A stretch of 64,000 bases of DNA, from NCBI RefSeq assembly GCF_002224645.1, contig NZ_CP022121.1, positions 1,494,501 to 1,558,500 on the forward strand, in the 5' to 3' direction. The position numbers and the translations under genes are program-made. The stretch comes from Dehalobacterium formicoaceticum. Lineage in GTDB: Bacteria > Bacillota > Dehalobacteriia > Dehalobacteriales > Dehalobacteriaceae. Each line of letters begins with the position of its first letter. Within the stretch, counting starts at the first letter, position 1. The notes below the pieces were generated by a model. That model had not been told where the DNA came from. It was given only the letters and a program-made list of their open reading frames with translations, and searched no databases. Below are positions 50,513 to 54,798 of the stretch, piece by piece.

Positions 50513-50631
50513 CACAGGACACAGTTGACACCTCTTGATAAGTGGAACAAAATTTGCATTCTCGCGTCTTTTAACTTGGAGGCAATCTTCAGTAAAAACC
50601 AAATATTTTGCAAGAGAAGGAGATGGCTGAA

Positions 50632-52647
50632 ATGAAACATACACTAAAGACCGGACTACTTGTGAACATGATCATGCTGATCATGTTCGGCGTTGCCATG
50701 ACACGAGGGAGTGCCCAGGGCAAGGATATCCAGGTTAAGATCAATCGTTTTAGTGAATGGGGGGAAATTGTCCAGAACAGCATCGAGTTTGAGCATCAAG
50801 AAAAACCCAGGCTGGAGCAGGGAAGGGTACTCATTCCTCTAAGGAAAATTTCTGAGTTCTTAGGATTTACCGTGTCCTATGATCACAAATCAAAGAAAAT
50901 TGATTTGGCTGACCACGCCGGAAAAAAGATAGCCTTAACGATATCCGATAAAACCGCGATGGTCAACAATAAACCAGTGAAGATGGATGTGCCTGCCAAG
51001 GTAGTTAGCCAGCTTACCTTTGTTCCCCTCCGGTTTGTCAGTGAGAATTTTGATCAGTCGGTAAAGTGGGATCCATCAACCCGTACAGTACTCATCGATA
51101 ATTTCACGATTTCTACACCGGAGTATCTATTCAATCAAAAAACCCTGGAATTGAGAAAACGGGATCTATCGGGTCAGGGAAAGCATGCGCTGCTGGGTAA
51201 GATTGAAATGAGAGTGGACTGGGTCAGTATGGATGTGACGAAAACCAAGCACGGCAATGATCTTATTGTCATCAATAATAATACCGGGGCGCCGCATATA
51301 TTCTACAATATCTATACGATTTATGTTTCAGAAAAAGAAATCATCGATCAAAGTGAAGTACATACGCTTTTTTCGGGCCAGCCGGTTATCAGTGCCGATG
51401 GGGAAAAGGTTGTGATCGGAGACGGGAAAACAGCCCGAGTATATGATGATCAAACGAAAATGCAGCTCCATGAGTATGACCTGCTCCGCATCTTTCAAGG
51501 GGATAAAGATCCCAGTCCAATGGACTCTTGGGAAAAATCATATGTGGTAGTAGGTTTTGGGGACAATTATATTTTGGTCAGAGATACATTTAAAATGCTC
51601 ACCCAAATGGTTTATTTAGATACCTTGGAAATTGTGGATATCTATCAGGCGCTACTCTCAAATGAGGAGCAGGAAAAAGCGCTGCAGAATGGACGTCCCT
51701 TTGGTAGCGGCGATCGGTTAACATTCCTGGAAGAAAAGGATGGCAAGTTAATATTTAATAAATACTATGAGGATGGACCGTATATTAAACAGAAGCCGGT
51801 GGAATTTATTCTCGGTGCCCGTGTGCCGGTGAAATCTGCGGAATCAGTACGAGGGAACACTACAGGTAATCTCAATAATAACGGTCTCTATGCCCAAGGC
51901 GGCGACTGGATTTATTATAGTAATCTGGCAGATGAGGGAAAGCTTTACAAAATGAAAGCTGACGGGAGCGTAGCGACTAAAATTACTGATGATACTGCCT
52001 GGTATATTAACGTAGTTGGGGATGAAATATTTTACAGCGGCAAAGATTGGAATTTAACAAAAATCAAAACGGACGGCAGCGGCAAAACAATTCTGGATAC
52101 TCAATCCTATCATATTAATGTGGTTGATGACTGGATTTATTACACCAGAGTTCATATGCAAGACGGGACTATCTATAAAATGAAAAAAGAAGACGGGAGC
52201 AGCAGGACCCAAATTAACAAGGATCCAGTAAGCCAGCTGGTTGTGACGGAAGAAGGAATTTTCTATTCTAGTTACTACATTAAGTTAATCAGAATCAATC
52301 ACGATGGCAGCGGCAAAACAAAATTGATCAGCGAGAGAAGTGTGGCAGAAATCAATGTCATTGACGACTGGATCTATTTTAATTACAACAAATCTCTAAA
52401 TAAGATCAAAACCGACGGTAGCCAATTGACGGAAATCAGCAGTGATGATGCCCGGGAGATCAATGTTGCCGGGGATTGGATTTATTATACTGATAGCGCT
52501 GAATACTGGAAAAAGCTATATCAGATCCATGTGGACGGGTCCGGGAAAGAGAAATTAAGCGATGATAAGCCCGCGTATATTCATTTGCTAGATAACCAAC
52601 TATACTACTATGACCAATATACCAACACGATGAAAGTGATAAATTGA
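50632..52647 (+). CDS. Exported protein with copper-amine-oxidase-N stalk domain and DUF5050-like propeller
   Basis: A 671-aa secreted protein. Signal peptide (residues 1-28, LLVNMIMLIMFGVAMTRGSA), a stalk domain with the FVPLRFVSENF and VLIDNF motifs (about 35-160), an unassigned domain (165-400), and a C-terminal propeller of at least six blades marked by D-W-I-Y-Y repeats: GGDWIYYSN, GDEIFYSG, DDWIYYTR, DDWIYFNY, AGDWIYYTD, DNQLYYYD, each followed by K-x-D-G-S. This is the DUF5050 pattern; function unknown, probably cell-surface. It was the source or sister of the truncated copy at 43201. Confidence 0.88.
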   Translation: MKHTLKTGLLVNMIMLIMFGVAMTRGSAQGKDIQVKINRFSEWGEIVQNSIEFEHQEKPRLEQGRVLIPLRKISEFLGFTVSYDHKSKKIDLADHAGKKIALTISDKTAMVNNKPVKMDVPAKVVSQLTFVPLRFVSENFDQSVKWDPSTRTVLIDNFTISTPEYLFNQKTLELRKRDLSGQGKHALLGKIEMRVDWVSMDVTKTKHGNDLIVINNNTGAPHIFYNIYTIYVSEKEIIDQSEVHTLFSGQPVISADGEKVVIGDGKTARVYDDQTKMQLHEYDLLRIFQGDKDPSPMDSWEKSYVVVGFGDNYILVRDTFKMLTQMVYLDTLEIVDIYQALLSNEEQEKALQNGRPFGSGDRLTFLEEKDGKLIFNKYYEDGPYIKQKPVEFILGARVPVKSAESVRGNTTGNLNNNGLYAQGGDWIYYSNLADEGKLYKMKADGSVATKITDDTAWYINVVGDEIFYSGKDWNLTKIKTDGSGKTILDTQSYHINVVDDWIYYTRVHMQDGTIYKMKKEDGSSRTQINKDPVSQLVVTEEGIFYSSYYIKLIRINHDGSGKTKLISERSVAEINVIDDWIYFNYNKSLNKIKTDGSQLTEISSDDAREINVAGDWIYYTDSAEYWKKLYQIHVDGSGKEKLSDDKPAYIHLLDNQLYYYDQYTNTMKVIN

Positions 52648-52653
52648 CACATG

Positions 52654-52670
52654 GGGGCTGTCGGGAAATA
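52654..52670 (+). terminator. Left half of a terminator hairpin split by the IS element
   Basis: GGGGCTGTCGGGAAATA (52654-52670) is the exact 17-base reverse complement of 54697-54713, which is followed by TTTTTTTTT. Joined, they would be a textbook Rho-independent terminator for the DUF5050 gene ending at 52647; now 2026 bases separate them. Confidence 0.8.
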
Positions 52671-52763
52671 GCCCCATAAAAAAATCAGTACACTCTTAAT
52701 GAGGGTACTGATTTTTTATGCAAAAAAGAAAAAAAGATGGCTAATCAGGACCACCTTTCCTCC

Positions 52764-52783
52764 GTTACAGTATATACTGTAAC
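52764..52783. promoter_or_regulatory. Perfect 20-bp palindrome ahead of the transposase start
   Basis: GTTACAGTATATACTGTAAC is fully self-complementary and ends five bases before ATG 52789, occupying the place of a ribosome-binding site. It could bind the transposase or fold in mRNA to limit translation. Confidence 0.6.
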
Positions 52784-52788
52784 TACAC

Positions 52789-54540
52789 ATGAACAATACA
52801 TATTATAATCAATTTTTCGAGATAGGGCAACAAGCAGTTAACTTTAATCTGTATCAGATAGGATTACCAGCAGACGACCCCGTCTATACCCTTAAAAAAG
52901 TAATGGAGGAACTTGATTTTTCTGGTCTCATCGCCAGATATTCTACCAAGGGAAGAAAAGGCTATAATCCTATTATGATGTTTGCGATACTGACTTATGC
53001 AAATATGAGGGGAGTTAAAGCTGTTGACCGAATTGTGGAACTATGCGAACGAGACATCGCCTTTCTGTGGTTGTCTAAGGGTGAAAAGCCCAAGCGTGAT
53101 GCTTTCTATGACTTCATAAACAACAAACTCAACAAAGAAATCCTTGAAGGTCTTCACTATCATTTCATCAGACTCCTTCAGCGAGAAGGTCTTGTAACGC
53201 TTAAGAGCTTGTTCATAGACGGCACAAAGATCGAAGCCAATGCCAACCGATACACCTTCGTATGGCGTGGCAGCATAAACTATCATTTGGCAGGACTGCT
53301 TGATAAGGTTGATGAACTTTATTCAAGATACAACACCCTCATCACAGAAGCCGGCTACGACAAAAAATATGGACTGAGGGAAGAAAAAATGTTCGTCATC
53401 GAAGGGATGGACAGGGTTCGGGAAATCATCCAAAAGAATCGGGAACGCAAGAAGACCAATCAAAAGAAAATATCTAATAACACCATCTTGGAGATCGACA
53501 ACATATCTCCATTGGAATTATTGAAACTGCAGACAAACCTCACGAAAACAGCCAAGGGAGAAAACTTGAGTTTTGTATCTGGTAAAGGACAGCAAAAATC
53601 CGAAATCCAAAAACTTTACGAAGAGATTGAAGAGTGTGGAAACCGCCTGCTCAAATACCAAAATCACTTTAAGATAATGGGTGCAACTCGAAACAGTTAT
53701 TCAAAGACGGATCTTGAGGCGACCTTCATGCGCATGAAGGACGACCATATGTTAAATGGACAGCTCAAACCAGCATACAACGTACAGATAGCTGTAGAAA
53801 ACTACTTCATCATCCATACCCACATCAGCAATGACAGAACCGATTACAACACGCTCATCCCAGTGCTGGAAAAACACAAGGATGCTTTCGGAAAAACACT
53901 GGAAGAAGTCACAGCAGACAGCGGATACAGCAGTGAACAAAATCTGAGTTATCTAGAGGAAGAAGGCATTAAGAGCTACATCAAACTGCAAACCCACGAA
54001 AAAATGAAGACAAGAGCCTATAAAAATGAAATCGGCCGACACTACAACATGGAGAAGGTCGAAGAAGGTTCCACACGTTATTATCTATGCAGTGATGGGA
54101 GAAAACTTATTCACGAGAGAACAGAAATCAAAAGACAGAACGAATTGAAACGCACCTTTGAAGTGTATGCCTGCAGCGACTGTAGCGGCTGTACACTCAA
54201 GGCGCAATGCCTTTATCAATATGACGAAGAAAGAGATATAAACAAGAACAAAATCATGAAGGTTAATGAGGCTTGGGAAGAGCTAAAGGCAAAGTCACAC
54301 GAAAACATACAAAGTGAAAAGGGAATTCTCAACCGCCAAATCCGATCAATCCAGACAGAAGGTCATTTTGGTGATATCAAGGAGAACGACAAGTTCAGGC
54401 GATTCAATTATCGCAGCTCCAAAAAGGTATACAAAGAATTTATGATGTATTCATTTGGACGAAATCTAAACAAATACCATAAATTCATAAAAGGAAAAAT
54501 CAAAGAATTTGAGGGTAAAACTTCCGAGGTAGCAGCTTAA
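52789..54540 (+). CDS. IS1182-family transposase, apparently intact
   Basis: A 583-aa DDE transposase. N-terminal domain with YNPIMMFAILTYANMRGV and KRDAFYDFINN; first catalytic Asp in SLFIDGTKIEANANRYTFVW; coiled insertion (200-310); second Asp in EVTADSGYSSEQNL; Cys motif CSDCSGCTLKAQCL; catalytic Glu region IQTEGHFGDIKEND. Full length for the family, no interruption. No Shine-Dalgarno sequence precedes ATG 52789, common for transposases. It is only distantly similar to the two transposase remnants elsewhere in the window. Confidence 0.93.
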   Translation: MNNTYYNQFFEIGQQAVNFNLYQIGLPADDPVYTLKKVMEELDFSGLIARYSTKGRKGYNPIMMFAILTYANMRGVKAVDRIVELCERDIAFLWLSKGEKPKRDAFYDFINNKLNKEILEGLHYHFIRLLQREGLVTLKSLFIDGTKIEANANRYTFVWRGSINYHLAGLLDKVDELYSRYNTLITEAGYDKKYGLREEKMFVIEGMDRVREIIQKNRERKKTNQKKISNNTILEIDNISPLELLKLQTNLTKTAKGENLSFVSGKGQQKSEIQKLYEEIEECGNRLLKYQNHFKIMGATRNSYSKTDLEATFMRMKDDHMLNGQLKPAYNVQIAVENYFIIHTHISNDRTDYNTLIPVLEKHKDAFGKTLEEVTADSGYSSEQNLSYLEEEGIKSYIKLQTHEKMKTRAYKNEIGRHYNMEKVEEGSTRYYLCSDGRKLIHERTEIKRQNELKRTFEVYACSDCSGCTLKAQCLYQYDEERDINKNKIMKVNEAWEELKAKSHENIQSEKGILNRQIRSIQTEGHFGDIKENDKFRRFNYRSSKKVYKEFMMYSFGRNLNKYHKFIKGKIKEFEGKTSEVAA

Positions 54541-54696
54541 GAAAAAAGTAGCATTTAAAGTTGAATACCTTTATTTGGTGCACCCAAAATTAATATTTCC
54601 AATACAAAAACAGAACCCAGCAAGATCAAAGGCCATTTTCAAAGCCCAGATTCTTGAGGGTTCTTTTCATTTTTAGCTCATTGGGACAAAATCAGT

Positions 54697-54722
54697 TATT
54701 TCCCGACAGCCCCTTTTTTTTT
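54697..54722 (+). terminator. Right half of the split terminator with T run
   Basis: TATTTCCCGACAGCCCC (54697-54713) then TTTTTTTTT; pairs with 52654-52670. The same T-rich region also pairs locally: CAGTTATTTC (54693-54702) with GAAATAACTG (54723-54732). Confidence 0.75.
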
Positions 54723-54798
54723 GAAATAACTGCTTCGGGAATAATTGGATACTGCCCAGGGGAAGATAATAGGAATTAAATGGACGGGGAGTAAAAAT

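Follow-up and report, generated by a model that had tools for sequence, protein, structure and literature searches.

IS1272 and TnSha1/TnSha2, IS1182-family elements of staphylococci, target inverted repeats or hairpins, which are often terminators (PMC4923244, PMC5678879). Upon insertion of IS1272 or TnSha1 the target stem-loop is lost partly or wholly, and no target duplication is generated (PMC4923244, PMC5678879). A search of the literature on terminator-targeting and on transcription entering the ends of insertion sequences yielded nothing further. Some insertion sequences, such as REP-targeting elements, enter hairpins without removing them. Here, we describe an IS1182-family element of Dehalobacterium formicoaceticum together with its relatives. 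This subgroup resembles IS1272 and TnSha1/TnSha2 in its transposase family, its terminal repeats of ~16-17 bp, its inverted-repeat targets, the loss of the stem-loop and the lack of target duplication, but the IS1272/TnSha transposase is only ~31% identical to that of the present element, and the terminal inverted repeat (TIR) of an IS1272-like copy (L226), GAGTCTGGGACATAAA, is unlike its TIR. The subgroup differs further in being found mainly in Clostridia and their relatives and in having strong subterminal hairpins. With elements of the REP-targeting type it has in common that secondary structure or palindromy would guide the choice of target, but it replaces the stem-loop rather than splitting it. 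The type element of the family, IS1182 of Staphylococcus, has a transposase 32% identical to the present one and a TIR that shares the GGGGCTG start, whereas the remainder of the TIR is unlike (GGGGCTGACCCA against GGGGCTGTCGGG); one IS1182 copy (L227) is located between an A-run and a T-run. The stem-loop-replacing mode has already been published for IS1272, and the present element is probably a new, distant example of it.

The element is located in a stretch of 64,000 nucleotides of the D. formicoaceticum chromosome (NZ_CP022121.1, positions 1,494,501 to 1,558,500; hereafter the window), in which it occupies 2060 bp of the forward strand (52654..54713). It is bounded by a left TIR, GGGGCTGTCGGGAAATA (52654..52670, forward strand), and a right TIR, TATTTCCCGACAGCCCC (54697..54713, reverse strand), which are complementary at 17 of 17 bp (100%) and 2026 nt apart, and the right TIR is directly followed by nine T residues (T9). 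In between lies an intact open reading frame for a DDE transposase of 583 amino acids (52789..54540, forward strand; NF033551, PF13751, PF05598, PF01609). Its score against NF033551, 305 bits with a cutoff of 270, bears out the assignment to the IS1182 family made in a preceding reading of the sequence without database searches (the sequence-only reading). The element is apparently complete and intact. Searches of its own genome found one copy only. Homologous elements were collected with transposases 54-73% identical to that of the window, and those having both ends are 2016-2098 bp long.

In the sequence-only reading, the 17-bp arms and the T9 were noticed correctly; they were taken for the two halves of a host terminator, in the loop of which the element would have inserted while preserving an arm on either side. 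The perfect arms and the T9 speak for such an event. However, GGGGCTGTCGGGAAATA or a close variant of it bounds homologous elements in Acetobacterium, Fusibacter, several Lachnospiraceae and genomes of Bacilli/Tenericutes, at sites unrelated to one another. As the same ends bound homologues at unrelated sites in other genera, the arms are, on this comparison, the TIRs of the element itself. A perfect repeat of 17 bp is far beyond chance, yet it is what is expected of an insertion sequence, and joined TIRs form a hairpin by definition, so that closing the gap would yield one for any copy anywhere rather than recreating a terminator of the host. The only other TIR-like near-match in the genome (L006/L225) was rejected as a candidate, as it sits within a gene for a collagen-like repeat protein, which also argues against a split host terminator. 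Insertion into the loop is thus extremely improbable, being refuted by the comparison of TIRs.

What the element does to its target can be seen in relatives. The flanks were joined for copies in which both were available, and for some copies genomes without the element were searched for. Three occupied sites of close relatives (L136, L054 and L161) have homologues that read through without the element, and host DNA is missing at all three, with no target duplication seen in any of these comparisons. At the two clear sites, L136 and L054, an inverted repeat of 22 and 18 nt, respectively, is missing over its whole length. Exactly at the position of the element in L136, one homologue (L177) has GGGCGGCGG-GAAA-CCGCTGCCC and another (L218) has GGGCGGC-N8-GCCGCCC. 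At the L054 site, where 18 nt are missing, three of seven homologues (L170, L171 and L178) have TACCG-N8-CGGTA; the other four have a weaker repeat, which counts against the interpretation. Terminal pairing as good as at L136 and L054 occurs in ~0.01-0.15% of windows of equal length. The L161 site lacks 17 nt, and the ends of this segment pair at 4-5 of 6 positions in homologues that have diverged, so that loss of an inverted repeat is suggestive there. The orthologous intergenic regions of two Fusibacter sites (L045 and L046) carry terminator-like hairpins in related genomes, although no base-level alignment of these regions over the junction was possible. For the L144 copy, no empty site was found beyond its own genome. 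Judged from these occupied and empty sites, elements of the window's subgroup go to stem-loops and replace them rather than entering the loop, combining loss of an inverted repeat with lack of target duplication as in insertion of the IS1272 type. The suggestion of the sequence-only reading that the element chooses hairpins holds in this respect for its relatives; its other half, insertion at the hairpin tip, does not, since the stem-loop is replaced.

The flanks of the copies point in the same direction. Across 24 right and 20 left flanks, outward T-tracts are enriched on either side of the element (p<=5e-5 for each side), with a mean of 4.0 T residues among the first six flanking bases on the right and 3.5 on the left as against ~2; this fits terminators as targets. 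Halves of host inverted repeats still bracketing each copy, which the sequence-only reading had proposed to look for, are in weak overall excess (permutation p 0.015-0.10 depending on window size), most visibly at L136, L037 and L040, and this excess is not main evidence; the 17-bp arms that the copies have in common are their TIRs. The Lachnospiraceae copy L040 is bracketed by a 15-bp inverted repeat, GTTACTGTTCACACC, one half at 2827-2841 and the other ~92 nt past the right end, at unequal distance from the element.

It could be argued that the element merely prefers A-tracts and T-tracts or AT-rich intergenic DNA, and that stem-loops are lost because terminators hold such tracts. The strong T enrichment at both ends is what such a preference would produce, and many sites look intergenic; however, at L054 and L161 the element apparently lies within a coding region and is not flanked by tracts on both sides, and what has been lost at L054 and L136 is itself an inverted repeat, the limits of which match the ends of the element. 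Such a preference as the whole account is therefore rather unlikely. Another possibility is that the window copy inserted beside a T-run without loss of any host stem-loop, in which case no terminator stem would ever have existed behind the gene upstream of it, which encodes a protein with DUF5050 and copper amine oxidase N-terminal domains. An element-free version of this site, which would bear on this directly, was not found. Against it stands the loss of host DNA, without target duplication, at three of the three close-relative sites having empty homologues, and we regard it as very unlikely.

It is likely, then, that the window copy is a complete element standing in place of the terminator of the DUF5050 gene, as in its stem-loop-replacing relatives. 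The open reading frame and domain calls place this gene at 50608..52647 on the forward strand, so that it ends six bases before the left TIR, and its terminator has probably been replaced. Downstream of the element, a GerA-type germination gene starts at ~54745. The T9 (54714..54722, forward strand) is best read as the leftover T-tract of the host terminator: replacement of the stem-loop would be expected to leave a T9 at the right flank and a left end six bases past the stop codon. The left flank, GACACATG, is without an A-tract, which counts against a replaced terminator, and the flanks contain no direct repeat that would indicate a target duplication. Loss of a host inverted repeat at this very site would follow by analogy with the relatives; an empty homologue, sought via the GerA gene, was not found for lack of synteny, because the nearest relatives with a GerA gene have different genes upstream of it. 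A near-perfect inverted repeat of 13 nt, AATCAGTTATTTC / GAAATAACTGCTT, reaches from the right end of the element into the flanking DNA (54690-54735) and may be due to chance.

An outline of the proposed event is as follows: the element takes the exact place of a short host inverted repeat without target duplication, as shown for its close relatives. For the window copy, the target would have been the DUF5050 gene's intrinsic terminator, the stem-loop of which would have been lost while its T-tract persisted as T9 past the right end. A terminator-like hairpin at the left end of the element would now end the DUF5050 transcript, and the insertion may therefore cause little damage; the same hairpin would also keep host transcription away from the transposase gene.

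This subterminal hairpin (52679..52717, forward strand), for which the sequence-only reading had rightly reported 13 bp, has arms of 17 nt (52679-52695 and 52701-52717) with one mismatch (94% complementary) and 13 contiguous pairs. It has a stable fold and is followed by a T run, and is a likely terminator for transcripts entering from the DUF5050 gene. All 18 of the left ends inspected have a hairpin in the equivalent position, with z values between -2.6 and -11.7. In an alignment of 7 relatives on this hairpin, both partners have changed in 11 of 18 pairs, and pairing holds in 95.9% of cells, a count that does not come from an unbiased sample as these relatives were picked for equal hairpin loop length; with slid registers, pairing in the same alignment drops to 35-49%. 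The hairpin at the left end is thus genuine, and paired base changes maintain it among relatives. At the right end, AGAACCC...GGGTTCT (54612..54664, forward strand) folds into a hairpin followed by a T-rich tail, possibly the terminator of the transposase gene; most relatives have a right-end hairpin in the equivalent position, that of the window copy being weak (z -1.2). Both hairpins would act as terminators.

Just 5′ of the transposase start codon lies a palindrome, GTTACAGTATATACTGTAAC (52764..52783, forward strand; fold z -3.0), over a -10-like TATACT (52773-52778). It is kept in relatives via paired changes (GTTACA/TGTAAC, GTTCCA/TGGAAC, ACTTATA/TATAAGT and GTTGCA/TGCAAC). No Shine-Dalgarno sequence is evident before the start (52764-52789), which, together with a palindrome over a -10-like sequence directly before the start codon, suggests that the transposase mRNA may be leaderless. 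The palindrome would be a putative guard against translation of read-in transcripts. A broader proposal is tentative: the clostridial branch of the IS1182 family may systematically swap host terminators for itself, its own conserved terminator-like end hairpins insulating transcription of the neighbours, with read-in transcripts silenced by a hairpin that covers the start of a leaderless transposase mRNA.

These comparisons extend the structure-dependent mode of insertion, with replacement of the stem-loop, beyond staphylococcal IS1272 to a branch at about one-third identity, and its being common to branches so distant suggests that this mode may be old within the family. Conserved end hairpins provide a simple account of how a terminator-deleting element could spare its host. 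Caution is also called for when an insertion sequence lies beside a T-run, as its terminal repeats can pass for a split terminator. Vaginella massiliensis carries a distant IS1182 element in about ten copies (L074-L085), the left end of which is formed by a terminator-like hairpin with a T run behind it. IS1182-like elements of Gracilibacillus and Oceanobacillus (L060-L062 and L102; 35% identical) have the GGGGCTG start and a left-end hairpin, with T-runs past the right end in some copies.
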